DNA of 64,000 nt from Clostridiaceae bacterium (GTDB lineage Bacteria > Bacillota > Clostridia > Lachnospirales > Lachnospiraceae). Within the stretch, counting starts at the first letter, position 1. Every line of letters begins with the position of its first letter. Location: the NCBI GenBank assembly GCA_910574345.1, contig CAJSZV010000007.1:1-64000 (forward strand), given 5' to 3'. Of this stretch, positions 34,558 to 62,050 are shown one piece after another. Made by a program: the position numbers and the translations under genes. The notes under the pieces are model-generated. The model was given only the letters and a program-made list of their open reading frames with translations. It ran no database searches and was not told the DNA's origin.

Positions 34558-35649
34558 TTAAACCTGGATATCTGTTATGGCTGCCGCCTCTCTTTTCCAC
34601 GCCTCCACAGTCTGCAGAAGCCCTTCCTTCATGTGAATCCTTGCCTCCCAGCCAAGAGCCCGGATCTTTTCTGTGCTGAGCATGGCCCTGGTTGCCGTGG
34701 AATATCCCTTCCGCTCCCTTTCCTCAGGAAGTTCAAACACCACTTTGCTCCCCCCAATCCCTGCCAATATCTCTGCCAGTCCCTTAAGGGTAATATCCGA
34801 CTGTTCATCTGCCACATTGTAGGCTTCTTTCAGCGCCCCAAAAACCATGGTCCATAGAATCCCCGCTGCCGCATCAGTGACAAAGGCGTAGGAATACTTT
34901 TGATTCCCTTCGCTTTTCAGCACAATGTCCTCCCCTGCCGCCGCCTTTTTTAGGAATTGGGAAATAGCCTTGGTATCCGACATAAGCATGGTGGGCCCAT
35001 AGACTCTGCTAAGCCTGGGAATGACAAATCCCATGCCGCAGGCTTCCCCATATGCATTGCACAGGGCCTCTCCCAGCCGTTTGCTCTCCGGGTATCCGGC
35101 TCTTAAGGTGTTGCAGTCAAGAAACCCCAGATATGACTCGTCAAATTTTTCCGTGTCTCCACGGTTCTCTCCGTACACTTCCACAGAGGACACAAAGCAA
35201 AACTGCCGAATTCCATGGGAGACTCCGTAATCCAGCAGATTCCTGGTTCCGAACACATTGGAAGCTATGGTTCCTATGGGATCCTGAGAATACAGCCTGG
35301 GATGGGTATTGCTGGCCGCATGGATGATGTAATCCACACGGCCGCACTCCGGGACAACCGCGTTTACATTGCAGGAAACATACTGAAACCACGGGCTGTC
35401 CCAGTAATCCCCCAATCTCTCACGGGCTGACGATTCGTTTCTGCTCAGGGCAATAACCTTGACCCCTGTATCCTGGGATTCTGATGTCTGGCAGGGAACA
35501 GTTCCTGCATTGTACATCATAAAAAGATCCACCAGACATTTGCCGATCATGCCTGTGGCTCCTGAGATCATGATTGTGCTGCCCTTCAGATTCTTCCACA
35601 GGGATTCCTTCTCCGACCAGTAATGCAATTCATCCATGTAGTTCGCCAT
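34558..35649 (-). CDS. NAD-dependent epimerase/dehydratase (extended SDR)
   Basis: A 363-residue sugar-nucleotide type enzyme. Rossmann start 'STIMISGATGMIGKCLVDLFM', 'DYIIHAASNTHPRLYSQDPIGTIASNVFGTRNLLDYGV', catalytic 'SSVEVYG' Ser and 'YPESKRLGEALC' (YxxxK), then 'RVYGPTMLMSDTKAISQFLKKA'. The substrate is unknown. It is the last enzyme gene of the glycan cluster and follows two TarI-like cytidylyltransferases and a DUF4422 gene, so a CDP- or other NDP-linked polyol or sugar is possible. GGGAG precedes ATG 35649. Confidence 0.87.
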   Translation of the reverse strand: MANYMDELHYWSEKESLWKNLKGSTIMISGATGMIGKCLVDLFMMYNAGTVPCQTSESQDTGVKVIALSRNESSARERLGDYWDSPWFQYVSCNVNAVVPECGRVDYIIHAASNTHPRLYSQDPIGTIASNVFGTRNLLDYGVSHGIRQFCFVSSVEVYGENRGDTEKFDESYLGFLDCNTLRAGYPESKRLGEALCNAYGEACGMGFVIPRLSRVYGPTMLMSDTKAISQFLKKAAAGEDIVLKSEGNQKYSYAFVTDAAAGILWTMVFGALKEAYNVADEQSDITLKGLAEILAGIGGSKVVFELPEERERKGYSTATRAMLSTEKIRALGWEARIHMKEGLLQTVEAWKREAAAITDIQV

Positions 35650-35684
35650 GATTATCCGCTCCCTTCTGATCACCTTATCTCTTC

Positions 35685-36779: not shown

Positions 36780-36781
36780 AT

Positions 36782-37492
36782 CTATTTAATCCAGTCCTCT
36801 CTCTCCATGTTGAGAAGTGCCTTGAACACCTCCAGATCGTCAATGGTGGTAATCTTTACATTTTTCTCCGTTCCTTTGGAAAAATATACCCGCTCCCCCA
36901 GATGAAGCATGAGGGTATTGATATACACTTCCCCTTTGATGCCTCGCCTTTCAGCCTCCTCGTAGGCCCACAGTGCCTTCCCATACAGATAGGCCTGAGG
37001 AGTCTGAACACGCATAATCTCCTGGCGGCCGATATTCTCGTCCCCCGAAAGTCCATCCTCCGTTCTCACGATGGTCTCCTGGCACCGGACGGCGCTGAGA
37101 CCGGTGCCTTTTCTCTGGCATACCAGAATAGCATCGCTGATAACCTCCTCCGTGATAAACGGGCGGATGGCATCATGGACAATGACCACGTCATCCTCAT
37201 GGCAGATACTCTTCAAAGCTTCTATTCCCTTCTGTGTGGACTCCTGACCGTCATTTCCTCCCTTTACCACCCATTTCAATTTGGTGATCCTGTACTGTCT
37301 GGCATAGGCCTTCAGAACCTCATGCCACCCCTCCAGGCACACCACCGCGATCCCATGGATATCCGGGTGCCGCTCAAAATTCTCCAGGGTATAGATAATC
37401 AGAGGCTTCTCGTATACGTTCATAAACTGCTTCGGCACGTCCTGCTGTGTCCTGCTGCCGTAGCCTCCCGCCAAAATCAATGCTATATTCAT
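36782..37492 (-). CDS. IspD/TarI-family cytidylyltransferase (copy 1)
   Basis: A 236-residue CTP transferase. It shows 'IALILAGGYGSRTQQDVPKQFMNV' (CTP-binding loop with Arg and Lys), 'DDVVIVHDAIRPFITEEVI', 'RQEIMRVQTPQAYLYGKALWAYEEAERRGI' and 'ITTIDDLEVFKALL'. TarI makes CDP-ribitol for teichoic acids; IspD makes CDP-methylerythritol. Its place in a surface-glycan locus and the presence of a second copy next door favour a TarI-like role. No TarJ reductase is seen. Confidence 0.88.
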   Translation of the reverse strand: MNIALILAGGYGSRTQQDVPKQFMNVYEKPLIIYTLENFERHPDIHGIAVVCLEGWHEVLKAYARQYRITKLKWVVKGGNDGQESTQKGIEALKSICHEDDVVIVHDAIRPFITEEVISDAILVCQRKGTGLSAVRCQETIVRTEDGLSGDENIGRQEIMRVQTPQAYLYGKALWAYEEAERRGIKGEVYINTLMLHLGERVYFSKGTEKNVKITTIDDLEVFKALLNMEREDWIK

Positions 37493-37517
37493 CGGTCTCC
37501 TCCCTGTACATTTTGCC

Positions 37518-38240
37518 TCATATCTTTTTTTCTACGGCTTCCTCCGGGTGTTTCATGCGGTAAAGAGCCTTGAACATCTCCACATCCTCCACGGTATTGA
37601 TCTTCATGTTCAGGCTGGATCCCTTTGAAAAATATACCTTCTCCCCAAGATTGGTGAGAAGAGAGCTGTTGTCCCAGGCTCCCAGACAGCTCTTCTCGAC
37701 AGCTCTGTTGTGAAATTCCCAAATCAACTCAAAATCAAAAGCCTGGGGGGTCTGAACTTTCATGATCTCGTAGCGGTTAATACTCTTGTATCCTTCCTTC
37801 CCATCCCATGAATGCATGATCGTATCCATAATATAGGTAGCCGCCACCCCCATCCCCTTCTTCCGGCACATCTCCATGCTTCTGGTGATCACCTTCTCCG
37901 ATACCATGGGGCGGATGGCGTCATGAATCACCACCATGTCTCCTTTTCCCATTCGTTCCCGGAGAAGCTTCAGTCCCCGGTATGTAGATTCCTGGGCATC
38001 TTTGCCTCCCGGAATAATCTCTCTCAGCTTCTTGATGTTAAACTGGTTCCCGTATACCCGAACCATCTCCTGCCAGCCGTCCACGCAGGTAACGATGATC
38101 TCATCAATATCCGGGTGATTCTGGAAGATCTCCAGGGTGTAGACGATAATGGGGCGGTTGTTGACATTGACGAATTGTTTGGGGATATTCATCTGGAAAC
38201 GGGGGTCGATACCTCCGGCCAGGATTAGTGCTGTATTCAT
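37518..38240 (-). CDS. IspD/TarI-family cytidylyltransferase (copy 2)
   Basis: A 240-residue paralogue of the following gene. It shows 'TALILAGGIDPRFQMNIPKQFVNV', where the nucleotide loop reads GGIDPRF instead of GGxGxR, then 'DMVVIHDAIRPMVSEKVI', 'INRYEIMKVQTPQAFDFELIWEFHNRAVEKS' and 'INTVEDVEMFKALY'. Loss of the second loop glycine may alter the activity. GGAG precedes the ATG. It lies directly downstream of the inserted Rpn element. Confidence 0.85.
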   Translation of the reverse strand: MNTALILAGGIDPRFQMNIPKQFVNVNNRPIIVYTLEIFQNHPDIDEIIVTCVDGWQEMVRVYGNQFNIKKLREIIPGGKDAQESTYRGLKLLRERMGKGDMVVIHDAIRPMVSEKVITRSMEMCRKKGMGVAATYIMDTIMHSWDGKEGYKSINRYEIMKVQTPQAFDFELIWEFHNRAVEKSCLGAWDNSSLLTNLGEKVYFSKGSSLNMKINTVEDVEMFKALYRMKHPEEAVEKKI

Positions 38241-38306: not shown

Positions 38307-39429
38307 TTTCATACTTATATCAGGATTATGAGATTTAAAAATATATGCTTAGCAAGGACAAATTTATAGATTCAGCCACTGTTTTACTGTATCGATATCG
38401 TAGCCAACTCCCTCGGCTACTTTCTCCACATCAACGCCCAGTCTGTAAAAATTTCTGGCATTTTCCTGGGCAGTCTTTAAGGCACCTCTCTTCTCGCCCC
38501 TCTTCTCGCCCCGCTCCTCACCGATTCTCTCGCCTTCCTTTTTAGACTCTTCTCTCATCTCTCTAATCGCCTGGCACATATCTACCTTCACCTCTTTCTC
38601 ACTATATTTTAATCCGCTGTTAGTTATGGCAGCTATCACATCCACCGCTCTGCGCTCCACTTCCCGAAATCTCGCCTCATTGGATATCAGGATCTCCTGA
38701 AGCTTTTCTTTATCCTTTGAGTACTTGATAAAGAGCAGAACCTCCCGGAGACTGGTTTTAAACCTCATGATCTCCTCATCTGCCATCATAGCCGGGGCGA
38801 TCAATTTTACATGATAATTATCCAGACAGGACAGGACCCTGGAATCTGCCTCTTCCATCATGTCAAGCAGATTTAAGGGACCATCCCACTCTTCACTGCC
38901 AAAATAAAGAGTCACGGTGACCGAGGGAATCAGTTTATCCTCTTTCCAGAAGCCTCCCAGAAATTCTCCTGAGTTTGGCTTTTTCGATTCGGATGCTTCA
39001 GCCGGATTCCCCTCCCTCAGCCTCTTCTTTCTTGCGTTCCGGTGAGACCTTGCGGCTTCCTCCACCTGCCCGGCATACTCCAGGGCATCATAGAGATGAT
39101 TCTTCACTGCCATGGCATAATGAATATCTGTCTGGTTCTCCACACCGTAAAGTACATACTTGGTCTTCCCATCTGTCATGGCAGTACAAAGTTTCTGCAC
39201 ATCCCGGAATCTTTGAATGGGAACCACGGTGCCGTCTGCTCCGTATGGCAAGGCCAGCTCCTTGGAATCCCGCTCTGTCAGAGTTTCCGGGCTGATCACC
39301 TGCTTTCCTCTGTAAACTGGTTTTTGTCAGTTTTGCCTTCCTATACAGTATACTAGAAGAAGAATCAGGATTCAAGATAAGTGTCAAAAATGGCGAAGTT
39401 AATGTAATAATTCTGATATAAGTATGAAA
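38307..39429. mobile_element. 1.1-kb Rpn element bounded by 21-bp terminal inverted repeats
   Basis: The left end TTTCATACTTATATCAGGATT (21 bp, 38307-38327, given here once) and the right end at 39409-39429 are inverted copies that differ at one position. Between them lies only the Rpn-family nuclease gene. A further inverted copy of 18 bp at 38278-38295 forms a hairpin with the left end. No clear target duplication is seen. The unit interrupts the glycan operon between the decarboxylase gene and the TarI-like genes. Confidence 0.6.
38364..39299 (-). pseudogene. Rpn family (PD-(D/E)XK) recombination-promoting nuclease, 5'-truncated
   Basis: A 311-codon frame. 'YRGKQVISPETLTERDS' (its first residues lie just upstream of the GTG at 39299), 'KYVLYGVENQTDIHYAMAVKNHLYDALEYAG' with the catalytic-type E-x-Q, 'KEDKLIPSVTVTLYFGSEEWDGPLNLLDMM', and a C-terminal Lys/Glu/Gly-rich stretch before 'ARNFYRLGVDVEKVAEGVGYDIDTV' are typical of clostridial Rpn/YhgA-like proteins. 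The N-terminal 30-40 residues of the family (with 'FADLFN'-type sequence) are missing; a stop lies upstream in frame near 39337. So it is either decayed or uses an internal GTG. Confidence 0.75.
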
Positions 39430-39456: not shown

Positions 39457-40578
39457 TTATAATTCCTTCAGATAATCCATGAACCCTGCCTTATTATCAT
39501 GTGTTGAAGTCGTAGGCCTTCCCAGATCATCCCTTGCACCAATAGAACATTCCACTTCTATAAAGCTCAGCTGATTATTGGACTTAACAGTCTCAAGTTC
39601 TCTGTCAAGGTCTTCATAGCTGTTTACTTTTGCCGTATATGGATAACCGCAGGCCCTCGCGACAGCCGCGATATCTGCCTTACCCGCTGCTGTCGGCATT
39701 CCCCCAACCGTTTCATGGGCCTCATTGTTTATAACAACATGGATAAGGTTACTCGGGCTATTGGCGCCTATTACCGCCATAGCCCCCATATGCATAAGAA
39801 GGGCTCCGTCCCCGTCAATACACCAAATTTTTCTCCTGGGTTTACTGAGCGCTATTCCCAGCGCAATGGAGGAACTATGCCCCATGGAGCCAACGGTCAG
39901 AAAATCATACTTGTGCGGCTGGTTATTGGCAGCTCTCGCCTCAAATAGCTCTCTGCTGGCCTTACCTGTTGTAGAAATAATCGGATCCCTGCCGGATGCA
40001 GCAAGAATATGCTTGATTACATCTTCACGAATCATGGTATTGCCATTCCCATATACTGCTTTTTCATCATAGGAAATCCCACCTTTGCGGATGACAAAGG
40101 CTACTGACTTTCCCAAGGCAAGAATGTGCCTGAACTCCCCCATCTTCTCAGAAGCTTCATCATCAGTAGTATCTTTGCCGATAACAAACGTTGCAATATC
40201 CATATCCTCAAGAAGCTTTATAGTCACCTCTCCCTGGTAAACATGCTGAGGCTCGTCATGGACACCAGGCTCCCCCCTCCAGCCAACGATAAATACAACA
40301 GGAATGGCATAAACCCTGTCACTTAAAAGGCTCGCTGCCGGGTTGATGATGTTGCCTTCCCCGCTGTTCTGCATATAGACTACGGGAATCTTTCCGGTTG
40401 CCAGATAATATCCGGCGGCCAGCGCCGTGCAGTTTCCCTCATTTGCGGCAATAATATGATGACCAGGGTCAATACCGTATCTATTCATCAGGTAATTACA
40501 CAAGGCCTTTAACTGACTGTCCGGAACGCCTGTATAAAAATCGGAACCAATTATTTCAACCAGCTTTTCTGCTCTCAT
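39457..40578 (-). CDS. aepY: phosphonopyruvate decarboxylase
   Basis: A 373-residue ThDP enzyme that turns phosphonopyruvate into phosphonoacetaldehyde and thereby pulls the unfavourable PEP mutase reaction. It shows 'FYTGVPDSQLKALCNYL', 'ANEGNCTALAAGYYLATGKIPVVYMQNSGEGN', 'GWRGEPGVHDEPQH', 'TTGKASRELFE', 'VGSMGHSSSIALGIAL' and the ThDP motif 'WCIDGDGALLMHMG...NNEAHETVGG' (GDG to NN). Length is typical (about 375). AGGAG precedes the ATG. It lies 18 bases after the dehydrogenase gene of the same operon. Confidence 0.95.
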   Translation of the reverse strand: MRAEKLVEIIGSDFYTGVPDSQLKALCNYLMNRYGIDPGHHIIAANEGNCTALAAGYYLATGKIPVVYMQNSGEGNIINPAASLLSDRVYAIPVVFIVGWRGEPGVHDEPQHVYQGEVTIKLLEDMDIATFVIGKDTTDDEASEKMGEFRHILALGKSVAFVIRKGGISYDEKAVYGNGNTMIREDVIKHILAASGRDPIISTTGKASRELFEARAANNQPHKYDFLTVGSMGHSSSIALGIALSKPRRKIWCIDGDGALLMHMGAMAVIGANSPSNLIHVVINNEAHETVGGMPTAAGKADIAAVARACGYPYTAKVNSYEDLDRELETVKSNNQLSFIEVECSIGARDDLGRPTTSTHDNKAGFMDYLKEL

Positions 40579-40595
40579 CGTATCTCTCCTACCGC

Positions 40596-41786
40596 TTACT
40601 TACCCCTCCCTGCAAGTTGGGGCATTATAATCTTATCTATAATAAATCCTGCAGTTTTCTCAATATCTTCATATGCTACTGTCTTCGGAAGCTTCACTCC
40701 AAAAGCTTTGACGGTTTTCCCAATGAGATCATCTGTGTATATCAGTTTTCCGTCAACAACATCTTCCACACCATCCAATGCCATAGATGCCCTGTTTGCC
40801 CTGTCCATCTCCTCAAAGCTGAACACGGACTCATCAACCCAAGCTGACAAAACTCCGTCTTTATACCCCACGAAGACAGGGTAACCGCCGATATTGCCAT
40901 CAAAGCCCGGAATAAACACTCTCTGATTCTCCCCTGTACGGACTGCATCAATGACAGACTTGATAATCTGATAATTACTTGATGCGTTCATCATGTTTCT
41001 TGTCTGGTCAACTGGCATGGATATCTTACAGGCCTCATAAATCCCGCTGTGGGACAATTTCTGCTCCTCACCCTTATAGTACACTCTCAAAGGCAGCTCG
41101 ATTCTCTCCGTCTGCCCCTCCTTGCTGATACATACATCGTGGAAATGCCCTGCTGCAAACATAATATCAACATTCCAGAAATCGTCCGCCCCAAGCATAT
41201 CAGCCACTGCAAACTGCATTCGTGGTATCAGGTGGTTTAAGTTGCCGCTCCCGAAATCAGGGTACGGCCTGCCGGCACTTTTAAGCCAGGGAATGACCGC
41301 ATCGGAATACGAAGTGTTGATCACAATGGCATTGGCACCCGCCAGCTCACAGGCATCCATCACATTCTTTGTAAAACGTATGGCAAGAGGGCTCCAGATC
41401 CCATATGCCCTTATATTTGCCCATGAAATACTGCCATATTTAAGCCCCGGATACGCACGGCTTGCATTCACAATAAAATCAGGCTCATGCTTCTCTATGG
41501 CTGATTTGACCGTGCCTATATCATTGAGCTCCACACCGCCTTCCACTTCAATATGTGACTTGTTGACACCTCTGATCAGTCCCGCCACCCTTGTGATATT
41601 GACCTTCTCCTGCATCTTATGGGCATCACGGCCTGCCACCACTATGCTTAGTGCCTGGTCATTACTGCTTACCAGGTAATCAAGCAAATAAGAGCCAACG
41701 CTCCCAAGGCCAATAATCATAACTTTGATTTTGTTATTCTTTACATGTCCCTCTACAACCTTTAATCTCTCTTCTAATGGCTTCAC
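40596..41786 (-). CDS. NAD(P)-binding dehydrogenase of unknown substrate in the phosphonate operon
   Basis: A 396-residue protein: 'IKVMIIGLGSVGSYLLDYLV' (GxGxxG, near residue 25), 'SIVVAGRDAHKM', 'PDFIVNASRAYPG', 'AIVINTSYSDAVIPWLKSAG', and 'FWNVDIMFAAGHFHDVCI'. The start resembles saccharopine-dehydrogenase-like enzymes, and the middle is also a little like malate/lactate dehydrogenases; I cannot decide. Its gene starts by GTG in a four-base overlap with the nucleotidyltransferase gene and is followed by aepY. It is therefore the best candidate in the operon for the next step on phosphonoacetaldehyde (reduction or reductive condensation); this is inference. Confidence 0.65.
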   Translation of the reverse strand: MKPLEERLKVVEGHVKNNKIKVMIIGLGSVGSYLLDYLVSSNDQALSIVVAGRDAHKMQEKVNITRVAGLIRGVNKSHIEVEGGVELNDIGTVKSAIEKHEPDFIVNASRAYPGLKYGSISWANIRAYGIWSPLAIRFTKNVMDACELAGANAIVINTSYSDAVIPWLKSAGRPYPDFGSGNLNHLIPRMQFAVADMLGADDFWNVDIMFAAGHFHDVCISKEGQTERIELPLRVYYKGEEQKLSHSGIYEACKISMPVDQTRNMMNASSNYQIIKSVIDAVRTGENQRVFIPGFDGNIGGYPVFVGYKDGVLSAWVDESVFSFEEMDRANRASMALDGVEDVVDGKLIYTDDLIGKTVKAFGVKLPKTVAYEDIEKTAGFIIDKIIMPQLAGRGK

Positions 41787-42556
41787 TCCACATCCCCCAT
41801 CCAATATTCCAGTATTTTTCTGTAATCCTCTCTCGTATTGCAGTTTGTCCATCTCGAAAGGCTTATTAATTCAAAAGATTCCTCAGCACAAAGATCCATA
41901 TAGTTCTGAATGATACAAAGATTTGTACCAGCTCTTTCCATTTCAAAAAACTTCTTGCTGGCTGCTTTTAATCTCTCCATATCTGTGAATTTCCACATCT
42001 GCCCTGAGTTAAGGATTACAGAAAAAGCATCATCTATTTTCAGCAGTCCATGGCTGCTGTTAAAAGCATACCTGAAACGCCCGTCTGCATCTTTATAAAG
42101 CACCACGGCCTTCTTTGCATAGATTGGCTCGAAGCTGTACGTCAGGACATCAGACCCGGCAGCTATCACTTTGCCAAATGAATCCCTGTCAATATCCAGA
42201 TCCCCCTCCGCAAACAGCACACGCTCTACACCCTCAGACCGATCAAGTATCTCTCTCAGACCTACATACAAGCTATATCCGGACCCAAGGTCTGTATAAT
42301 GTTCGTTATAAACAAGAACCAGCTTGTCCTTCATGGAATCCGGCAGTTCATCACAATATGCCTTCAAATCATCATATTTATAACCGCCCACAACCACGAT
42401 TCTTTGGGCAAACATGCATTTTTCTATGAGATGATAAAGCAGCGTGCATGTCCTGTCCCTCTCGTAATAGATTGCCTTAAGGCACTTGTCTTCCTCACAT
42501 ATCCCTTCGTTGAATCTGCTGGAAACTCCTGCCACTGTTATGATTGCTGCTTCCAC
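41783..42556 (-). CDS. nucleotidyltransferase (LicC/PntC-like), probable phosphonate-activating enzyme
   Basis: A 257-residue protein beginning VEAAIITVAGVSSRFNEG. The start is a variant of the GxGxR nucleotide-binding loop, with 'EEDKCLKAIYY' giving the usual Lys; 'RIVVVGGYKYDDLKAY' and 'RVLFAEGDLDIDRDSF' (the metal-binding Asp pair region) follow, as in the LicC choline-phosphate cytidylyltransferase group. In phosphonate gene clusters such enzymes activate phosphonates as CMP esters. GTG 42556 has GGAGG five bases ahead; an ATG at 42577 lacks a good site. Confidence 0.75.
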   Translation of the reverse strand: MEAAIITVAGVSSRFNEGICEEDKCLKAIYYERDRTCTLLYHLIEKCMFAQRIVVVGGYKYDDLKAYCDELPDSMKDKLVLVYNEHYTDLGSGYSLYVGLREILDRSEGVERVLFAEGDLDIDRDSFGKVIAAGSDVLTYSFEPIYAKKAVVLYKDADGRFRYAFNSSHGLLKIDDAFSVILNSGQMWKFTDMERLKAASKKFFEMERAGTNLCIIQNYMDLCAEESFELISLSRWTNCNTREDYRKILEYWMGDVE

Positions 42557-42584
42557 TGACACCTCCGATCTGTGCATCTGTCAC

Positions 42585-43589
42585 TCACATTCCCAGGTAA
42601 TTTGCAATACACTCATCAAGGCCCTTGTCCAAATCCACTACAGGCCTCCATGAAGTGCGTGTTCTTATCTTCTCCGTAGAAAGAAGCCTTCTCTCCGGAT
42701 CCGATTCCCTGTAGCCCTCAAACTCAATAACAGGTTCTGCAATGCCCATCTTGGCCCCACAGAGTTTTGCCAGATCAACCATTGAGATTTCCTCATCTGT
42801 GGCAACATTATACACCGTTCCATCCAGAGCCGAATCAGTACCGGCAAGAGCGAGCACCGCACTGCAGCTGTCATAATTGTTGAGAAATGTCCTTCTGTTT
42901 CTCCTTGAATTTTCCAAAAGAACCACTTTCCCTTCATTCTGGAAACTGTTAATGATAAAGGGAATGATATGTTTCGGAAACCTCTCATTCCTGCTGTATA
43001 CATTGGCAAACCTGATTGAACAGCCTTTGATTTTCCCGGTATCCACAGCATCTCTCATAAAAAATTCCGTAAGAAGCTTCCCCACTGCATAGCTGGTCCT
43101 CTGGCTGTGCTCCGCGTCAGACATGGTAAGGAAATCATCCTCCCTCACTCCTCCGCTCTCATTCCATGAATGCATGGAATACACCTCTGATGTAGAGCAG
43201 TTAATAAACTTTTGCGCCCCCACACGAACCGCCTGCTGCAGAAATTCATTCATGCCTGTTACGTTAGTCTCAAATGTGTCATATACATGATAAAAATGTT
43301 CCGTATGGACAACTGCCGCACAGTTAATGTAAATCACCTCATCGTATCTCTGTTTTTGTGCAGCCACCCTCTGCTCAAAATCCTCCATCTGGACTTTGTT
43401 ATTGATGTCATATTCAAAAAACTCAAACCTGCCGTCTCCTAAACAGTCCTTCACCGTCTCAATAGACGATGCAAAGAAATTATCAAATCCCAGAATATGG
43501 TCACTGCCCTCTCTTCCCGCCAGGATCTGACGGACAAGTTCATTCCCCGTCATACCTGTCACACCGCTGATTGCATATAATGTACTCAT
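42585..43589 (-). CDS. NAD-dependent epimerase/dehydratase (extended SDR)
   Basis: A 334-residue enzyme: 'LYAISGVTGMTGNELVRQIL' (GxxGxxG), 'INCAAVVHTEHFYHVYDTFETNVTGMNEFLQQAV', catalytic 'NCSTSEVYS' and 'RTSYAVGKLLTEFFMRD' (YxxxK), 'IRFANVYSRNERFPKHIIPFII', 'GTVYNVATDEEISMVDLAKL'. It is a sugar-nucleotide epimerase or dehydratase of unknown substrate, distinct from the one at the end of the cluster. It lies between the metallophosphoesterase and the nucleotidyltransferase genes. Confidence 0.88.
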   Translation of the reverse strand: MSTLYAISGVTGMTGNELVRQILAGREGSDHILGFDNFFASSIETVKDCLGDGRFEFFEYDINNKVQMEDFEQRVAAQKQRYDEVIYINCAAVVHTEHFYHVYDTFETNVTGMNEFLQQAVRVGAQKFINCSTSEVYSMHSWNESGGVREDDFLTMSDAEHSQRTSYAVGKLLTEFFMRDAVDTGKIKGCSIRFANVYSRNERFPKHIIPFIINSFQNEGKVVLLENSRRNRRTFLNNYDSCSAVLALAGTDSALDGTVYNVATDEEISMVDLAKLCGAKMGIAEPVIEFEGYRESDPERRLLSTEKIRTRTSWRPVVDLDKGLDECIANYLGM

Positions 43590-43601
43590 AAAAACCGCCT
43601 T

Positions 43602-44348
43602 TCATATGCCTTTCTCTAATCTCGACTTATAGAATCCATCAATTTCATCAGGAAACAAGGACTGCTCATACCCCACATCATATGGGACCGCCCTCAGCTC
43701 CGTCCTTTTTGAAGGCAGGCAGAGCACCGCATATTGAGCACAGGGGTTCTGGTTCCGCGGCTGCCCCACAGATCCGGGATTGATGAATACGACTGCCTTT
43801 TTATTCCTTAACTCTTCATTTGGCACATCATAGAATTTCATAAAACAATGGGGGTAATGGGAATGGCCGGAAAAGACAAAGTCACAGTCCCTGTAGCCGC
43901 CTCCCACATCATCCGGCATAATTGCCTTCCAGTAACAGTCCTCCCGGCAGCCGTGAAGGGCAAGTGCCTTGAATCCCTCCAGCAAAATATGCTCATATCC
44001 GTCAGAGTTCATCCTGTCCTTTATATACCGAAAAGAATTTTCTGTCAGATGCTCTTTTGTATACCGTGCCATGGCCCGCCCCCGGTCCGATGATAACCGT
44101 TCCAGGTCCCCGTCAACCGCCAGCTTTTCATGGTTTCCCCAGATGTGAATCAGAATCTTCCCTTTCCAGGAACCCCTTTCAAGCTCCTGTAATTTCCCGA
44201 TGACCTCATTGGATCTCATTCCATAATCAATACAGTCCCCCAGAAGAATCACCCCGTCAAAAACCTCACTTCCACAATCTTCCAGCACCGCATCAAATGC
44301 ACTGATGTTGCCGTGTATATCAGAAAGGATCAGATACTTTTTTTCCAT
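43602..44348 (-). CDS. calcineurin-like metallophosphoesterase
   Basis: A 248-residue cytosolic hydrolase with the full metal-binding set: 'LILSDIHGNISAFDAV' (DxH), 'VILLGDCIDYG' (GDxxD), 'IHIWGNHEKLA' (GNHE), 'ALHGCRED' and 'FVFSGHSHYPH' (GHSH), then 'VFINPGSVGQPRN'. It is of the YfcE/MJ0936-like type. Its position next to PEP mutase suggests that it could remove phosphate from a phosphonate-pathway intermediate or a nucleotide by-product, but it has no specific motif for this. ATG 44348 is chosen over an upstream start lacking a site. Confidence 0.88.
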   Translation of the reverse strand: MEKKYLILSDIHGNISAFDAVLEDCGSEVFDGVILLGDCIDYGMRSNEVIGKLQELERGSWKGKILIHIWGNHEKLAVDGDLERLSSDRGRAMARYTKEHLTENSFRYIKDRMNSDGYEHILLEGFKALALHGCREDCYWKAIMPDDVGGGYRDCDFVFSGHSHYPHCFMKFYDVPNEELRNKKAVVFINPGSVGQPRNQNPCAQYAVLCLPSKRTELRAVPYDVGYEQSLFPDEIDGFYKSRLEKGI

Positions 44349-44380
44349 ACACTCTACCTTATCTCTCTGCAAACGATCCG

Positions 44381-45679
44381 TTATAATGTGTCAATCAGAC
44401 GTATGATGTCTTTAAAAGGCATTAACGCCGAATCAACCTCCTGGGCTCTGTGGGCTTTGAGAATCCCTTCCGCTGTCTGCTGCATCACCGGAAACGCCGC
44501 CCTCATCAGTTGGTTGGCATATATAACCATATTCACTCCATGGGAAGCAAGCACATCCTCTGTCACCTGATTGAACGATGTGGGGACAACCACAAGAGGC
44601 GTCCTTTTATCCTCTGCCCTGAACCTGTCACAAAACTCAAATATCTCCGAAGGGTCCTTTTTCCTGCTGTGGATCATAATGCCGTCCGCTCCGGCCAAAG
44701 TAAATGCACGGGCTCTCTCAAGAGCATCCTCCATCCCCTTTTCCAGAATCAGACTCTCGATCCTTGCAATAATCATAAAATCATCAGAAAGCTGCGCCCT
44801 TTTTCCCGCCTCTATCTTGGCAGCGAAATTCTCAATGGTATCCTGGCTTTGCACCACCTCCGTACCAAACAGGCTGTTCCTCTTAAGGCCGGTCTTATCC
44901 TCAATGATCACCGCACTTACCCCAATCCGCTCCAGTGTCCGGACATTATAAACAAAGTGTTCCGTAAGTCCCCCCGTATCCCCGTCAAGAATAACCGGTT
45001 TCGTTGTAACCTCCATGATATCGTTAATGGTGCGGAGCCTTGAAGTCATATCCACCAGTTCGATATCCGGCTTCCCCCTGTCCGTGCTGTCACAGAGAGA
45101 AGATATCCACATAGCATCAAACTGGTCAAGCCTTCCATCCATGCCCTCCACCACAGTCTTCTCAACAATCAGGCCTGTCAGGCCCGAATGAGCCTCCATA
45201 ATTTTCACAATAGGAACCATCTCAATGAGCTGCCGCAGCCTCTTTCTCCGAAATTCCGGCATACTCAGCCTTTCCCTCAGCCTGTCGTCTGCTTTCTTAA
45301 CTTTCTCACTGTATGTATAAGGCACATCTATCATCTGGCCGCCATAAGAAGCTACCAGCTTTTCTACATGGTCCCTTACTGCCTTCTCCGCACCGCTCTT
45401 CCAGTTATCCCCATGGATAACATAATCCGGATGCAGCCTTTCTATCACATCATCATACAGCATATCATCCTGTACCACCACTTCATCCACACCGTCCAGG
45501 GACCGGTACAGTTCCATTCTTTCCTCTATGGTTTTAGTCGGGAACTTGGTGCAGCGGAGCATCTCCTTGTCACTGAGGCAGCCCACAATAACACGGCCAT
45601 AGCTTCTTGCCTGTTCGATGATATTTTTGTGTCCGTCGTGAATGACGTCCGTGCTGAAACATGTGTATATTGTTTTCAT
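44381..45679 (-). CDS. pepM: phosphoenolpyruvate mutase fused to an N-terminal cytidylyltransferase
   Basis: A 432-residue two-domain protein. Residues 1-135 are a TagD/GCT-like nucleotidyltransferase: 'YTCFSTDVIHDGHKNII' (HxGH at 14-17) and 'EERMELYRSLDGVDEVV'. Residues 145-432 are PEP mutase, which makes the C-P bond of phosphonopyruvate: 'AHSGLTGLIVEK', 'DAMWISSLCDSTDRG', 'VILDGDTGG', and the diagnostic E260-D-K-x5-N-S269 ('EDKTGLKRNS'). The third Met (45679) follows GAGGTG. This is the founding gene of the phosphonate branch; the fused domain predicts nucleotidyl activation of the phosphonate product. Confidence 0.95.
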   Translation of the reverse strand: MKTIYTCFSTDVIHDGHKNIIEQARSYGRVIVGCLSDKEMLRCTKFPTKTIEERMELYRSLDGVDEVVVQDDMLYDDVIERLHPDYVIHGDNWKSGAEKAVRDHVEKLVASYGGQMIDVPYTYSEKVKKADDRLRERLSMPEFRRKRLRQLIEMVPIVKIMEAHSGLTGLIVEKTVVEGMDGRLDQFDAMWISSLCDSTDRGKPDIELVDMTSRLRTINDIMEVTTKPVILDGDTGGLTEHFVYNVRTLERIGVSAVIIEDKTGLKRNSLFGTEVVQSQDTIENFAAKIEAGKRAQLSDDFMIIARIESLILEKGMEDALERARAFTLAGADGIMIHSRKKDPSEIFEFCDRFRAEDKRTPLVVVPTSFNQVTEDVLASHGVNMVIYANQLMRAAFPVMQQTAEGILKAHRAQEVDSALMPFKDIIRLIDTL

Positions 45680-45757
45680 ATTCATCACCTCACATAATTT
45701 GATCAATGTTATTATCGTTTTCTATCTATATCATGTGCTCTCAAAATGTGCTCTTTG

Positions 45758-47317
45758 TCACCAATATATAAGCTCCCACTTCTCTGGTGGTATATTAAGC
45801 TGCTCCATAACTCTTCTAAATTCCGATTTATCCCTGGTTATTTCAGCAGAAAAAACAGGCTTATTCACAACCATTTCTATCCTATCAACATCATTCGCGG
45901 ACAACAGAAACTCTATTTTATCATCCAAACAGTCTCTATATTCCACTTTTTCATTTTTCAGTATCTTCCCCACGCTGCTCCCTGAATCTCCCATGTAATT
46001 GCTGTCTGTTACAAATACGCAATATATTCCACTTTCTCTTAAATGCCTGTATATCGGCAACAACTCATACACTGACTCCTCACATAGGGCAATCAAGCCA
46101 CAATAGACATAGTCCCTTTTTAACTTTTCCGCAACAACCTCTGTAAGATGCAGACACGTCAGATCCTCAGGATATCCCTCATAATCCTTAAAACAATACG
46201 ACAAATACTCTTCTATCTTATGAGGAGCGTAACACCTTACCCCCTCAAACTCAATCTCTTCCAATGGCAGCAAAACATCCCTGCTCATCCATTTTTTATT
46301 GGGACATACATAAGAATCCATACTATCGAGTCCAAAGTAAATAGTATTGCTGTTATCAACTATGTATTTGTTTTGGCTTATTATCTCTAATACCCTCTGA
46401 TTTCCCTTTTCCGTATATCTGTAGCCTGCACAAAAATCAATTATTTTCTTATGCTCCTGAAAATCATATCCATCCTCATAAAAATCATATGGAAAAAAAT
46501 CAATGGTTCTGCAGTCAATTTCAGATGTTCCTTTCTTGATCTGAAGGCAATTCGGCGATATAACCATGATGTATTCACCAGGATGAGCTCTCAAAACCTT
46601 CTCCATAAGATGATTCTCTTCATAATCAAAAGATGCTTTCATCTCCATATAGACCAGGGCATCCTGCCCATATTGCATCAATCTCATATAATCATTTCTC
46701 AATAAACCAAAATCCACATCATCATCCCATGGAATAAATCCCTTGTGCCGATATAATCCGATTGCCGTGCCAGCTGCAACAAAAGGTTTTATTTCAAGCT
46801 TCATCTTCCTGAAATATTCAAACACCTCTGATGTGAATTTTATTGTTTCCTGCTGAATATAGGAAAGGTATCCCGTTGCTCTGCCCAATTTCCTGATATC
46901 CGATAATCCTTTCAGCGCCTCCAGCTGATTCTCCAGATGCCTGCTTAATTCTATATACTGATTTCTCTCTCGCCGCATTCTCTCCGTTTCATTATTTAAC
47001 AGTTCAAGATATTCATTCGGAGCATAGATCAGCATCTCATCAAGCAGAGATTCATTGCATATCAAAAAATCATTCATTCCCATGTGATAAAGTTGTGAAG
47101 CAATTTCATACGCAATATTACTGCTCACTGATATAATAACCACATAATCCCTATATATTTTCAAAAACTCATCTACGGTAATATATAAAATTCCATATTT
47201 AAAATCTCTTTCCCGGCAGCTATTATCACAAAAAGCATATACATTATCCCTGCCAAAATACTTTAACAGCTTTAATCCATATGATCCGCTTCCAAAAAGA
47301 ATTAGCTTTCTTATCAT
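45758..47317 (-). CDS. LicD-family phosphotransferase with N-terminal Rossmann module
   Basis: A 519-residue protein. Residues 1-90 form the shared module ('RKLILFGSGSYGLKLLKYFG', 'VYAFCDNSCRERD'). A coiled-coil stretch (about 95-130) follows. From about 155 comes the LicD domain, 'FVAAGTAIGLYRHKGFIPWDDDVDFGLLRNDYMRL', with the DDD metal motif in the nucleotidyltransferase fold, and 'CRTIDFFPYDF'. LicD enzymes attach phosphocholine from CDP-choline to cell-wall polymers. Next to pepM it is the best candidate for transferring the CMP-activated phosphonate (inference). The gene is AT-rich. Confidence 0.87.
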   Translation of the reverse strand: MIRKLILFGSGSYGLKLLKYFGRDNVYAFCDNSCRERDFKYGILYITVDEFLKIYRDYVVIISVSSNIAYEIASQLYHMGMNDFLICNESLLDEMLIYAPNEYLELLNNETERMRRERNQYIELSRHLENQLEALKGLSDIRKLGRATGYLSYIQQETIKFTSEVFEYFRKMKLEIKPFVAAGTAIGLYRHKGFIPWDDDVDFGLLRNDYMRLMQYGQDALVYMEMKASFDYEENHLMEKVLRAHPGEYIMVISPNCLQIKKGTSEIDCRTIDFFPYDFYEDGYDFQEHKKIIDFCAGYRYTEKGNQRVLEIISQNKYIVDNSNTIYFGLDSMDSYVCPNKKWMSRDVLLPLEEIEFEGVRCYAPHKIEEYLSYCFKDYEGYPEDLTCLHLTEVVAEKLKRDYVYCGLIALCEESVYELLPIYRHLRESGIYCVFVTDSNYMGDSGSSVGKILKNEKVEYRDCLDDKIEFLLSANDVDRIEMVVNKPVFSAEITRDKSEFRRVMEQLNIPPEKWELIYW

Positions 47318-47354
47318 TTCTGTTTCAAAAATACCTTTCTTTTTTATTCGTATT

Positions 47355-48650
47355 CTAAAAAATACAGATGTGCCCCTCTTCTACTCCATATTGCATCAAC
47401 TGTGCTTTTATAACCTGTGAATGCAGATTATTGGCCACAATGTATCGGGTTTCCCGGCTTCTGTTATCAACCTCCCGCGGGTTTAATATGGAAACATCCT
47501 CTATCGTCTTATTCCACTTGCTCTCATCATTATCCATAAACGCTTCTATGCCATAATCCATCTGCTTCATCCATCGATAAGCATGAATTCCAAAATTTCC
47601 GCACCCAAAAATCACAATCGGATATTCACAAGGCTTTCCCACTGTCAGCAATATCAGATTTCTTCGTCTCTCCTGATCCCTCCGATAATCCTCATATGAT
47701 TTCAAAATAGATCTCAATGGTGTATCAATGTTCATATCACTATCTGTTATGATCAGCTTATCTACCGCCCAGCTAATCTCTCGATAAAACCATTCATAAT
47801 AAGGTTTATACTCCCTGCCAAAAATCTGATACGGATCATTCACTGAATTATAAAAAGCCAATGCAATCCGGCAATAAAAGGTTTTTGCAGCTTCTCTGTC
47901 TTCCCTGATAAGGTCTTTATATTTGGAAAGTACAAAATTATACTCATTAAAAGAATACAGAAGCCCCTTATCCGAATTAGAAGATGCACCATCACGGTCA
48001 ACACAGTAAAAATAATATGCCTGATCAATATACATTACCCTCTTACACAATATACTTGTCTGAAATAAAAAACCCACATCCTGAAAAGCAGCCCCCGCTG
48101 TTTCAGAAAATAAGATATCATTATCAGTCAAAAAACTCTTTTTATATATACCATCCCACAAGTACAAATCATGAATACATATATCTTTCGACACAGGCTT
48201 ATCAATCACCCTAAAGTAGTAACTGTCATCACTAAAGTTCCTGCGAATTTGTTTATATCTTGTTCCGTCCTTCTGTGTCCAATAGGTATAATAATTGCAT
48301 TTAACATAATCACAATCATTCTTTACAGCTGGCTTATACAAATTTTCATACATATCGCAGCTTACATAATCATCTGTTTCCAAAATAGCAATATAATACC
48401 CACGGGCTAATCTTATTCCAAGATTTACCTGCGCGCCATAACTCTTAAACTCTGTTTTTATCAGTCGTATTCTCTTATCCTTCTCAGCATATCTTTCGAT
48501 AATCTCTGCTGTACCATCTGTAGAGCCAGCGTCAATACAGATAATTTCTATTTCCTTCAATGTCTGATTGACGGCACTTGCAAGACACTCTTCAATATAA
48601 TTTGCAACATTTAATGACGGCATAATGATAGATACTGCGATTTCACTCAT
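47355..48650 (-). CDS. GT2 glycosyltransferase with C-terminal Rossmann module
   Basis: A 431-residue protein. Residues 1-230 are GT-A: 'VSIIMPSLNVANYIEECLASAVNQTLKEIEIICIDAGSTDGTAEII', then 'YYIAILETDDYVS' (DxD-like E-T-D-D). Residues 340-431 are the shared module, 'YPIVIFGCGNFGIHAYRWMKQMDYGIEAFMDNDESKWNK'. It is cytosolic, without membrane helices. ATG 48650 follows GAGGG at eight bases. It lies between two licD-like genes. Confidence 0.9.
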   Translation of the reverse strand: MSEIAVSIIMPSLNVANYIEECLASAVNQTLKEIEIICIDAGSTDGTAEIIERYAEKDKRIRLIKTEFKSYGAQVNLGIRLARGYYIAILETDDYVSCDMYENLYKPAVKNDCDYVKCNYYTYWTQKDGTRYKQIRRNFSDDSYYFRVIDKPVSKDICIHDLYLWDGIYKKSFLTDNDILFSETAGAAFQDVGFLFQTSILCKRVMYIDQAYYFYCVDRDGASSNSDKGLLYSFNEYNFVLSKYKDLIREDREAAKTFYCRIALAFYNSVNDPYQIFGREYKPYYEWFYREISWAVDKLIITDSDMNIDTPLRSILKSYEDYRRDQERRRNLILLTVGKPCEYPIVIFGCGNFGIHAYRWMKQMDYGIEAFMDNDESKWNKTIEDVSILNPREVDNRSRETRYIVANNLHSQVIKAQLMQYGVEEGHICIF

Positions 48651-48668
48651 TGGATTTACCCTCAATTC

Positions 48669-49517
48669 CTATAAATATTCATAATATGGCTTATCCGCAT
48701 CAAACAAGACATCCTTATGATCTGTGCTTATCATCTGCGGTTTACTCCACGAACCATATATAATTCTCAATATATTTCTATACCCTGCCGGTATCCTCAT
48801 CTTGACAAACTCAAAGGGCAGCTCAACACTAGCTTCATAATCTTTCATAAAACGATTGCCAACTTTATTGTTAATTTCATAAGAAAGAAGCGCCACCTTT
48901 GATGCCTTTATTCCTGCATACTTCTTTACACAATTTTCAAAATCCATACAATATTGAGCGAACACTTTACGATCTGCCGTCTCATTCTCATCTATGTACT
49001 TTTTACCCTTATCTCTCAGCCTATATAACTCTCTCCAATAATCTTTTCTTTCCGAGGCACACGGCAAATTATCAATAGGAAAAATATCGATAAAAATACC
49101 CTGGTTCACTTTATGCTTTTTCCCTATCTCCTTTAACAAAATCCCTGTCGTACAGCTGTTCCTAATTTGAATATGCCCCCTGATTGAGCCGAAATCCACA
49201 TTCTCTGTCTGAAAACAATAGGGATAACTAAATTCCTTTTCCCCCACCTGGCACAGCTTGTCATAATCATCCCGAAACATGACAAAATCCATATCATCAT
49301 CCCACGGAATAAAACCCTTATGCCTGACAGCCCCAAGTAAGGTTCCCGCATCCGCATAATACTTTAGCTTATATTTACTGCATATAGTCACAAACTTTGA
49401 AAACAAATCCAACTCAACAGCCCACACCTGTTTTCGTTTCTCATCCACTAAAAAACCATCTCTCATCTCTTCTTTGAGATAATCTTTTGGTAAATCTATG
49501 GATCTCAGTTCAACCAT
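48669..49517 (-). CDS. LicD-family phosphotransferase (second copy)
   Basis: A 282-residue single-domain LicD protein: 'QVWAVELDLFSKFVTICSKYKLKYYADAGTLLGAVRHKGFIPWDDDMDFVMFRDDYDKL', 'GSIRGHIQIRNSCTTGIL', 'QGIFIDIFPIDNLP'. The WDDDMD motif and the following 'FIDIFPID' are complete. Unlike the other copy it has no Rossmann module, but the next gene encodes that module alone. GGAGG precedes the ATG. Confidence 0.93.
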   Translation of the reverse strand: MVELRSIDLPKDYLKEEMRDGFLVDEKRKQVWAVELDLFSKFVTICSKYKLKYYADAGTLLGAVRHKGFIPWDDDMDFVMFRDDYDKLCQVGEKEFSYPYCFQTENVDFGSIRGHIQIRNSCTTGILLKEIGKKHKVNQGIFIDIFPIDNLPCASERKDYWRELYRLRDKGKKYIDENETADRKVFAQYCMDFENCVKKYAGIKASKVALLSYEINNKVGNRFMKDYEASVELPFEFVKMRIPAGYRNILRIIYGSWSKPQMISTDHKDVLFDADKPYYEYL

Positions 49518-49545: not shown

Positions 49546-50253
49546 TTAAAATCTTATCACATCCCATATACTTATAATGGGTACTTTTGTTCTCTGCATC
49601 AGCTTCTCTTCTATCACCTCATAATTCACCTCATCTAACACTACAACTGCATCGCACTCATCCGCCTCTGTAAATTCATCTATCTTATTTATGATCTTTT
49701 TTATTATAATCCCAGAATTTAACAAATCCTGCTCCAACCATCCTTTTAGTTCATCAATCCCAAACACAATCAGCACGTACAAATCATTTAATTCAAAATA
49801 ATCCGCAATCCTCCCATTTCCCTGCCGTGCACATCTCCATTGTTCCTTAAGCGCCTGTACACCATACTCAGAATCAAACATAACTAAACCATCATAATAA
49901 TCAGATTTAATATCCGAAAATGGGATTACTATCTTGTCCGGTTTGACACCATAATGATTCAATTGATTCCGAATCACTTTAACAATTTCAATCCTTACAA
50001 TAGCAATCACGAAGTAGTATTCTTCTATCGAATCCTTTAAATCCTCCAGCGTGCTGACAGGATACTTCTCTTTCAGTGAATCTAATTTTTCTCTGTTGTT
50101 ATCACATATGGCGCAGACCTCAACTCTGTTCTCTCTGAAAATCTCATAGATATACTTTCCATATTTACCTGCGCCAAATATAACTGTCTTCTTTCCCCGT
50201 GCATATGATATAAAATCATCAAGATTGTATTCGACTCCATTTAGATCTTTCAT
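49546..50253 (-). CDS. stand-alone Rossmann-module protein
   Basis: This 235-residue protein begins with a short helix region and then 'KKTVIFGAGKYGKYIYEIFRENRVEVCAICDNNREKLDSL' and 'YYFVIAIVRIEIVKVIRNQLNHYGV', the module found in ten other proteins of the cluster. Residues 115-235 resemble a second, degenerate unit ('DLYVLIVFGIDELKGWLEQDLLNSGIIIKKIINKID'). It has no catalytic motif. It may bind a sugar nucleotide or act as a partner of the adjacent LicD protein; unknown. Confidence 0.65.
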   Translation of the reverse strand: MKDLNGVEYNLDDFISYARGKKTVIFGAGKYGKYIYEIFRENRVEVCAICDNNREKLDSLKEKYPVSTLEDLKDSIEEYYFVIAIVRIEIVKVIRNQLNHYGVKPDKIVIPFSDIKSDYYDGLVMFDSEYGVQALKEQWRCARQGNGRIADYFELNDLYVLIVFGIDELKGWLEQDLLNSGIIIKKIINKIDEFTEADECDAVVVLDEVNYEVIEEKLMQRTKVPIISIWDVIRF

Positions 50254-51568: not shown

Positions 51569-52660
51569 TTAATTATATGTTGCAAAATCTTCTAACTTTG
51601 CCCCTTTACCACATATACTCCACTCAATTTCATTTTGAACACAATGTTTGCACAATGGAACTTCCTCTTTTAAAAATTCCAACAATTTTTCATCTGACAT
51701 GCAACTTTCTAAGCTTACCACACCATTCTCAGGTAAGTTCACATTAAAATAATTATTAAAATAAGATATATACATTAACTGTGGGCACCTAGCAATTTTT
51801 CCATTCCATATTGTAACACAACCATTGCTTATACAAGTTCTGGGATATTTGCTGTGATCACTTAATGAAAGAGGTAAACAAAATTTTTCTTTAGATGAAA
51901 TTCCTCGAATTTCATACAAAATTTTATATCTATCCAGAATTCGGCATATATCATCTATTTTTTTATGTGTAGGAGCATATTCTGATATACTGATCCATAC
52001 CTGATTATCCTTTATGCATTGTAATATCTCATCTGATAATCTTTCAATTAGTAATCCATTTGTTACAATATACAATTTTGTATCCGGCAGAATTTCCCGG
52101 ATTCCTCGAATGTAATCACTAATTTCAGGATTTAAAAATGGCTCTCCTCCCAAAATATAAAAGCGCATAATAAATGACAACTTTTCTTTTAATTGTTTTA
52201 CATCAGACAGCCTAGAGTTAAGATCTGGCAATGTATTCGGAAAGATTGGTGAAAAGTGAGTACAGCCTCTGCAATTCAAATTACAGGAATCAATGATATG
52301 CATCTCAACCTGTGGCAGGACACTGCCTTCCCAACATTTACAGTTATAACACTGCTCTGCAAAAAAATTCTCGTACAATAATATCTCATTTTTATCTTGA
52401 AACCAAAAAATATCCTTATATCCCTTTTTTTTAAGCAATAAACATACATCTCTCGCACTATCAAAATCAAATAATGCAATAATTATTGTCCCTTGAAACC
52501 CTTCTATATCATCCAATTTATAAATAGGACACCCCTGATACTGACCCGATTTATTTTTATCAATAAATCCGGCTATCTCACAATCAAGTTTATAATAATT
52601 CCTTATTAAATCCAATACACATTTTCCCTTATTCCCAGCTCCATAAATTAAAATGTCCAT
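51569..52660 (-). CDS. radical SAM protein with N-terminal Rossmann module
   Basis: A 363-residue protein. The module 'MDILIYGAGNKGKCVLDLIR' covers residues 1-95. A small Cys patch (C104, C107, C109) is followed by the radical SAM cluster 'SCNLNCRGCTHFSP' (C126-x3-C130-x2-C133), 'FYILGGEPFLNPEI', 'KLYIVTNGLLIERL', and a Cys-rich C-terminus 'CISNGCVTIWNGKIARCPQLM' and 'CKHCVQNEIEWSICG' for an auxiliary cluster (SPASM-like). Radical SAM enzymes in glycan loci can modify sugars; the substrate is unknown. ATG 52660 follows AAGGTG. Confidence 0.9.
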   Translation of the reverse strand: MDILIYGAGNKGKCVLDLIRNYYKLDCEIAGFIDKNKSGQYQGCPIYKLDDIEGFQGTIIIALFDFDSARDVCLLLKKKGYKDIFWFQDKNEILLYENFFAEQCYNCKCWEGSVLPQVEMHIIDSCNLNCRGCTHFSPIFPNTLPDLNSRLSDVKQLKEKLSFIMRFYILGGEPFLNPEISDYIRGIREILPDTKLYIVTNGLLIERLSDEILQCIKDNQVWISISEYAPTHKKIDDICRILDRYKILYEIRGISSKEKFCLPLSLSDHSKYPRTCISNGCVTIWNGKIARCPQLMYISYFNNYFNVNLPENGVVSLESCMSDEKLLEFLKEEVPLCKHCVQNEIEWSICGKGAKLEDFATYN

Positions 52661-52671
52661 TTTATACACCT

Positions 52672-62022: not shown

Positions 62023-62050
62023 AATTACATCGCCCCTCTATAAATTTAAA

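Follow-up and report, generated by a model that had tools for sequence, protein, structure and literature searches.

According to the abstract of PMC6697681 (Rice et al. 2019), bacteria are believed to use most of their phosphonate capacity for tailoring the cell surface, and the phosphonyl tailoring (Pnt) pathway set out there has established phosphoenolpyruvate (PEP) mutase-nucleotidyltransferase fusions (PF01467 occurs in 23.6% of mutases), the enzyme PntC and activation with cytidine monophosphate (CMP), with a mention of LicD-like proteins near the mutase. The general idea of phosphonate surface decoration is, on that text, already published. Here we describe a nine-gene locus at positions 39457-49517 of a 64-kb stretch of contig CAJSZV010000007.1 from a Lachnospiraceae genome (GCA_910574345.1), the whole of which we call the window. 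A reading made from the letters alone (the sequence-only reading) had proposed that this locus makes a CMP-activated phosphonate and that LicD proteins attach it to a surface glycan. Published Pnt logic explains most of the locus: mutase-nucleotidyltransferase fusion, LicC-like cytidylyltransferase, nearby LicD-like proteins and CMP activation are all features of the Pnt pathway in the main text of PMC6697681. The three clusters studied there encode production of 2-aminoethylphosphonate (AEP), whereas the present locus has no close homologue of an AEP transaminase and holds instead a module of a metallophosphoesterase (MPE), an extended short-chain dehydrogenase/reductase (SDR; this one SDRe), a DUF6564 protein and a dehydrogenase-like protein that we call SDHl. 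MPE, SDRe and SDHl are the distinctive part of the locus; the terms saccharopine, archae-, metallophos- and epimerase have zero mentions in that main text.

Three further systems invite comparison. The cluster of Methanobrevibacter millerae ZA-10, in the part of PMC4987999 that covers it, has four genes including PEP mutase and phosphonopyruvate decarboxylase (PPD), and modification of a cell-wall polysaccharide was suggested. Its four genes lacked matches in methanogens and no pathway is given in that part; the likeness is one of description. An M. millerae metagenome-assembled genome is among the cassette carriers reported below (L026; L numbers denote individual stretches). For Methanocorpusculum, PMC10035134 notes a mutase, a PPD and a predicted phosphonoacetaldehyde reductase. 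The fosfomycin enzyme Fom1, as described in PMC6697681, has the same order of cytidylyltransferase and PEP mutase domains, and its cytidylyltransferase makes the CMP conjugate of 2-hydroxyethylphosphonate (HEP); by contrast, the other genes of the present locus match no further fosfomycin enzyme by family, and its setting is glycan biosynthesis. No paper on the SDHl cassette was found in the literature searched, with most subscription journals outside reach, and the cassette is a variant not found described there, plausibly with a headgroup beyond the known ones. We consider it probable, from sequence comparison, that the locus serves surface-glycan synthesis and includes a conserved phosphonate cassette of six genes, which would make an uncharacterised phosphonate for transfer by LicD.

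The cassette and its proposed chemistry

The six genes of the cassette encode the PEP mutase fusion, MPE, SDRe, DUF6564, SDHl and PPD (Table 1). Two steps are well supported by sequence: the PEP mutase domain would convert phosphoenolpyruvate to phosphonopyruvate, and PPD would convert phosphonopyruvate to phosphonoacetaldehyde. Both enzymes, as named in the sequence-only reading, score above their family cut-offs, and the mutase motif EDKTGLKRNS satisfies the EDKxxxxxNS pattern. SDHl and SDRe, together with MPE, may then act on the aldehyde or on its conjugate with CMP and yield an uncharacterised phosphonate, taking the place of an AEP transaminase or an iron alcohol dehydrogenase (Fe-ADH). 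The fused cytidylyltransferase, DUF6564 or both would activate the phosphonate as a CMP ester, and LicD (in some relatives perhaps a TagF-like transferase) would move it onto a surface glycan.

The candidates for activation resemble known cytidylyltransferases. For the N-terminal CTP_transf_like domain of the mutase fusion the best PDB match is 5x3d (E 1.4e-23, 86.6 bits), a 160-residue chain labelled phosphoenolpyruvate phosphomutase, which we take to be the cytidylyltransferase domain of Fom1. The protein at 41783-42577 belongs to PF20202/DUF6564 (331 bits, E 4.8e-99). Its earlier description as LicC/PntC-like is supported by profile comparison with LicC-like nucleoside triphosphate (NTP) transferases (hhalign E 5.5e-11; the score of 80 compares with a maximum of 17 from 20 column-shuffled controls) and by a predicted fold nearest to PntC, the phosphonate-specific cytidylyltransferase, in a tie with GlmU. 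It appears to be a relative of that group and not a family member, with PF12804 (NTP_transf_3) at 26.4 bits, just below the cut-off of 27. Across 17 sequences, STSE and YxxxK are invariant in SDRe, as are D18, H20, G45-D46, GNHE, H140 and H170-x-H172 in MPE, presumably as metal ligands.

SDHl is the least familiar of these proteins. Pfam recognizes its N-terminal domain as PF03435 (29.1 bits, cut-off 25.1), and the C-terminal part has no family match. The saccharopine-dehydrogenase label that follows from Pfam would be corrected by the fold, which among the matches listed is that of lactate/malate dehydrogenase (LDH/MDH) across both domains, with TM-scores by query length of only 0.40-0.51 among the 50 Foldseek matches listed and 12-19% identity to L-lactate/malate dehydrogenases and family 4 glycosidases among the pairs listed. 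At the positions that we take to hold the substrate arginine and the catalytic His-Asp pair of LDH/MDH enzymes, EcMDH R153 aligns with the invariant R211 of SDHl, D150 with H207, and H177 with E245, near the invariant H236 and H238. Two further readings were considered. A saccharopine or carboxyspermidine dehydrogenase, which by reductive amination would give N-substituted AEP, was first favoured from PF03435 and PDB 8deb (E 0.018); it was set aside because 8deb aligns only with profile positions 21-115 and the full-length fold matches listed are LDH/MDH, although such chemistry may still apply. Phosphonopyruvate, an oxaloacetate analogue, is a possible and attractive substrate for an MDH-like enzyme, but with PPD in the cassette the pathway presumably runs through phosphonoacetaldehyde.

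Conservation and relatives of the cassette

We followed the cassette through 26 stretches containing SDHl: 20 loci from a GTDB scan, four from 397 genomes of the family, the window, and L015, a second cassette locus of the window's genome. By title, the GTDB loci comprise 11 from Methanobrevibacter, five from Lachnospiraceae, two from Roseburia and one each from Ruminococcus and Hoylesella saccharolytica; named carriers include Hoylesella saccharolytica JCM 17484, Roseburia sp. 1XD42-69 and the M. millerae assembly noted above. SDHl occurs in five of the 397 family genomes (own included) and in 16 of 138 genomes of the family of L019's genome (Methanobrevibacter). By tblastn the six-gene set is complete in 21 of the 26 stretches, in several phyla and two domains of life. 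L022 and L027, counted as complete, each have one gene cut by a contig end, and the incomplete L036, L049 and L050 run into a contig end.

SDHl and PEP mutase travel together in these genomes. All 19 genomes reached via the GTDB loci have a PEP mutase (in one the gene is truncated at a contig end, and the other 18 exceed the cut-off), as does the genome of L030, and in 18 of the 19 (exception L031) the single PEP mutase found is that of the cassette stretch. In a sample of 299 family genomes (own included), a PEP mutase over the cut-off is present in four of four SDHl-positive genomes and in 31 overall (hypergeometric p 9.6e-5); the window's genome has seven, the next highest two.

A tree of 25 SDHl proteins joins the window copy, four copies of the same family and ten Methanobrevibacter copies with branch support of 100/100, and the L015 copy falls outside this branch. 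Gene order, with PEP mutase either first or after SDHl, mostly tracks the two tree groups (exceptions L035 and L049), so the window's genome holds one cassette of each group; between its two loci, MPE, SDRe, DUF6564 and SDHl are 36-67% identical. The tree carries a long-branch warning, and the direction of transfer is not readable from it.

More distant relatives were sought in mobile elements. Among 50,697 phage records, tblastn with SDHl found one relative, in Vibrio phage Va2 (30.5% identity over 86%). Two stretches of Va2 also encode DUF6564 (54 bits by profile; PF20202 52.3 bits, cut-off 25) and an SDRe (155 bits, against no more than 34 for the seven other neighbourhood SDRs that match at E 1e-3). 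They further encode two proteins that fall short of the family cut-offs, a PPD-like one (94 bits; TIGR03297 152 bits, cut-off 312.5) and a PEP mutase-like one (61 bits; TIGR02320 89 bits, cut-off 319.55); in the latter the EDK-NS spacing is six residues, not five. No MPE or LicD was found in these stretches, which cover 35.7 kb of 128 kb. We read the Va2 set as independent evidence for joint action of the enzymes, bearing in mind that its mutase and decarboxylase lie under their family cut-offs. The window's DUF6564 matched nothing in phages by tblastn, the Va2 homologue being seen via the profile and the L015 copy, and scans of viral contigs with four SDHl queries gave no relative. Annotations of Va2 (L093, L099) look shifted: the coding sequence called 'metallophosphatase' is an extended SDR, and the one called 'epimerase/dehydratase' (153 aa) has no Pfam or NCBIfam match. 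Two human-faecal 'phage' scaffolds with PEP mutase, MT836947 and MT837901, are unverified records that we take for likely bacterial fragments, since L100 has an operon of AEP type next to a YidC-Glyphos_transf fusion that resembles the ones in L035 and L038.

The idea that SDHl occurs only together with PEP mutase holds for the close relatives tested and fails for plasmid relatives with 25-28% identity, which are weighed below. Four rhizobial SDHl relatives adjoin alanine racemase, DMT transporter and HAD genes; L095, L097 and L098 also have a C45 peptidase and a trio of 2Fe-2S/FAD oxidoreductases nearby, which we would liken to opine oxidases as a resemblance only.

LicD proteins, headgroup and transfer

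Both LicD proteins named in the sequence-only reading are secure family members (Table 1). Scored by a profile from six LicDs of the window's genome, LicD accompanies the cassette in several lineages, bacterial and archaeal, in 16 of the 26 SDHl stretches (antisense open reading frame choices, as in L048, could hide some). Within Methanobrevibacter a LicD gene follows PPD codirectionally in eight of the nine loci that reach past PPD (exception L029). In L049 one LicD gene follows SDHl and two more separate PEP mutase from MPE. Of the eight LicD genes in the window's genome, six are no more than 10.3 kb from a PEP mutase, with a binomial p of 1e-8 that leaves aside their shared membership of glycan clusters. 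The sequence-only proposal is partly supported, by full-length genes for phosphonate biosynthesis and CMP activation and by LicD companions; that LicD would transfer the phosphonate goes further, the specificity of LicD not being readable from sequence. LicD1 has a weak PDB relative in fukutin-related protein (E 1.3e-4 over 42 residues).

What the LicD proteins carry can be read in another way. Just past PPD, at 34558-38240, are an SDR and IspD-like cytidylyltransferases that might furnish a cytidine diphosphate (CDP)-polyol for one LicD. If the LicDs transferred such a CDP-polyol, the phosphonate would go elsewhere, to another transferase, a lipid or a secreted compound. IspD-SDR pairs likewise occur in L015 and L018, both loci with LicD, and an IspD-like gene lies near a divergent LicD in L019 and L026. 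A possible alternative transferase is the fusion of YidC (60KD_IMP) and Glyphos_transf (TagF-like) near the cassette in L035 (12675-14708), where no LicD was found, and in L038 (2159-4258); near phosphonate genes it is also seen in L100 (1114-3213). The codirectional LicD genes of Methanobrevibacter and the three around the cassette of L049 speak for phosphonate transfer by LicD, and we regard the diversion of the LicDs to a polyol as quite unlikely. Beside the cassette and the LicD genes of L049 there is also an NTP transferase of LicC-like type fused to a choline-kinase domain (L049:12684-14309), from which phosphocholine and phosphonate may share a cluster.

The headgroup was approached through enzymes known to consume the aldehyde. 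Searches by tblastn (E 1e-5) used three AEP-type transaminases, the aminotransferase domain of L024 and three Fe-ADH proteins, in stretches of at most 10 kb either side of SDHl for the GTDB loci. Neither an AEP transaminase (four queries) nor an Fe-ADH of the phosphonoacetaldehyde reductase kind (three queries) was matched in the 64-kb window or in L015, and a DegT-type sugar aminotransferase about 15 kb upstream (60901-62022) is not taken for an AEP transaminase. Because close matches in the 21 complete stretches are confined to L024, with its own NTP-transferase-aminotransferase fusion upstream of PEP mutase, and to L034 and L038, with Fe-ADH, 18 of the 21 show no close AEP-transaminase or Fe-ADH homologue, other aminotransferase types not having been searched for in relatives; a 22-23% match on the opposite strand in L029 was not counted. 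Since the locus holds a conserved four-gene module in place of close homologues of enzymes known to consume the aldehyde, a point that the sequence-only reading missed, the decoration may be neither AEP nor HEP.

Two simpler products have to be set against this. The cassette could be another route to HEP, with SDHl or SDRe reducing phosphonoacetaldehyde, the Fom1-like domain making CMP-HEP and LicD transferring it; the presumed Fom1 identity of the best structural match favours this, and an LDH/MDH-fold dehydrogenase could in principle reduce the aldehyde. One reduction, however, needs fewer enzymes than two oxidoreductases and a phosphoesterase, and HEP would be made twice both in the window's genome, where a separate Fe-ADH locus exists, and in L034 and L038, where an Fe-ADH gene lies beside or near the cassette in genomes with a single PEP mutase match. 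We rate the HEP route as unlikely. Production of ordinary AEP, with a transaminase supplied from another genomic locus, is in our judgement very improbable. A class V aminotransferase does lie beside PEP mutase at L013 and L016 of the window's genome, an AEP-type set shares the cluster of L030, and the fusion in L024 points the same way, but SDHl, SDRe and MPE would be left without a role, the cassette mutase is the single one found in the 18 genomes counted above, and close AEP transaminase homologues appear only in the cluster of L030, whole genomes not having been searched for transaminase. The separate AEP-type and Fe-ADH loci of the window's genome, together with the Fe-ADH genes beside the cassettes of L034 and L038, make it plausible that the cassette product is something else.

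Several observations weigh against a conserved cassette for a LicD-transferred novel phosphonate. A possible AEP or HEP enzyme is present in three of the 21 complete stretches (L024, L034, L038), and no LicD was found in 10 of the 26 SDHl stretches, three of which are contigs 4.6-10.9 kb long. Nor is the set the same everywhere: in L031 (a contig of 6.6 kb) no SDRe match separates MPE from DUF6564, and the PEP mutase of its genome lies outside the cassette stretch; in L030 neither PEP mutase nor PPD is found within 10 kb, both lying in an AEP-type set about 11 kb off on the same contig. In the five stretches covered out of 13 records, the SDHl relatives on alphaproteobacterial plasmids show no PEP mutase, so the wider SDHl family is not phosphonate-specific. 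SDHl does not clearly keep the catalytic His-Asp pair of LDH/MDH enzymes, most of its invariant polar residues are lost in six distant relatives, and its substrate is a guess. A phosphonate cassette with LicD transfer remains our preferred account. The bolder proposal, an undescribed pathway in which an LDH/MDH-fold family and an SDR would tailor a CMP-tethered phosphonate that is neither AEP nor HEP, in gut bacteria, Methanobrevibacter and, diverged, in a Vibrio phage, is one that we advance tentatively, as possible but doubtful.

Gene layout, host genome and significance

Table 1. Genes of the locus and its downstream neighbours, by position in the window
Feature	Position	Strand	Evidence
LicD1, LicD-family transferase	48669..49517	-	PF04991 122.5 bits (gathering cut-off 22.6); WDDD
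Family 2 glycosyltransferase (GT2) with C-terminal NeuD/PglD-type region	47355..48665	-	PF00535 108.3 bits; weak TIGR03570, residues 350-430
LicD2, LicD-family with N-terminal extension	45758..47317	-	PF04991 85.3 bits (gathering cut-off 22.6), two pieces; WDDD
Cytidylyltransferase (PF01467) fused to PEP mutase	44381..45706	-	TIGR02320 409.8 bits (cut-off 319.55); PF01467 46.7 bits; EDKTGLKRNS, HDGH
MPE, calcineurin-like metallophosphoesterase	43602..44372	-	PF12850 64.2 bits; PDB 3rqz E 8.3e-29
SDRe, extended SDR	42585..43589	-	PF01370 92.2 bits; STSE, YxxxK; sugar-nucleotide SDR relatives in PDB
DUF6564 nucleotidyltransferase, LicC/PntC-like	41783..42577	-	PF20202
SDHl, NAD(P)-type dehydrogenase-like, LDH/MDH fold	40596..41852	-	Start of most homologues near 41786
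PPD, phosphonopyruvate decarboxylase	39457..40578	-	TIGR03297 445.2 bits (curated cut-off 312.5)
Transposase_31/YhgA-like gene, between PPD and IspD pair	38364..39299	-	PF04754 21.6 bits, marginally above cut-off 21
Two IspD-like cytidylyltransferases	37518-38240 and 36782-37492	-	PF01128 123.4 and 118.3 bits
SDR possibly going with the IspD genes	34558..35673	-	PF01370 132.3 bits; 35% identity to IspD-adjacent SDRs of L015, L018

The nine genes are transcribed in the order LicD1, GT2, LicD2, cytidylyltransferase-PEP mutase fusion, MPE, SDRe, DUF6564, SDHl and PPD, 3-51 bp apart except for one overlap, that of SDHl with the preceding gene, which arises because its mechanical start lies about 22 codons ahead of that of most homologues. 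The genes of the sequence-only reading were correctly named and placed, on the minus strand; its inventory omitted the N-terminal CTP_transf_like domain, MPE, SDRe and SDHl. Its host label, Clostridium, was too specific, the nearest named SDHl relative being from an uncultured Lachnospiraceae bacterium (L024, 80-81% identity). Downstream of PPD come the transposase-like gene, two IspD-like genes, DUF4422 and the SDR. Upstream, on the same strand to the window end, lie glycosyltransferases, a radical SAM protein, a methyltransferase, a DegT aminotransferase and a LuxC-type reductase, the last two (60901-63987; the reductase of acyl-CoA type) being the farthest upstream among the glycan genes on this strand. 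PglD_N, NeuD-type or C2185-like Rossmann-type domains were matched at 49546-50253, 47355-48665, 51569-52675 and 54260-55162 of the glycan cluster. Between 38000 and 50500, promoter-like sites (34, with 30.2 expected from shuffling) and terminator-like sites (8, with 6.8 expected) were about as frequent as in shuffled sequence and were not used.

In the window's genome (5.6 Mb, 106 contigs, 97.0% complete, 3.3% contamination), the seven PEP mutase genes that exceed the cut-off are spread over five contigs, each 113-469 kb long. Beyond the two cassette loci, L013 and L016 are AEP-type, with class V aminotransferases that are 78% identical, and L017 is of Fe-ADH type with a triple fusion. L014 and L018 have a transketolase-like gene and PEP mutases that are 97% identical; L014 also has PPD, and no decarboxylase was matched in the 20-kb stretch of L018. 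Their modules (L014:9525-14749, L018:9716-14893), 94-98% alike, hold PEP mutase, a LicC-like NTP transferase, a transketolase-like protein of 649-656 aa and WavE, and the transketolase adjoining PEP mutase may mark another phosphonate route. One genome is thereby shown with seven PEP mutase loci of several types.

The steps after carbon-phosphorus bond formation are mostly open, and the cassette makes the headgroup question testable. The set is compact, includes a family of unassigned oxidoreductases and occurs in both archaea and bacteria, with part of it in a phage. If the undescribed pathway were true, a phosphonate might be present on the archaeal envelope of Methanobrevibacter, and in Va2 the phosphonate would need a target that is not a LicD glycan, for which DNA or the virion are possibilities.

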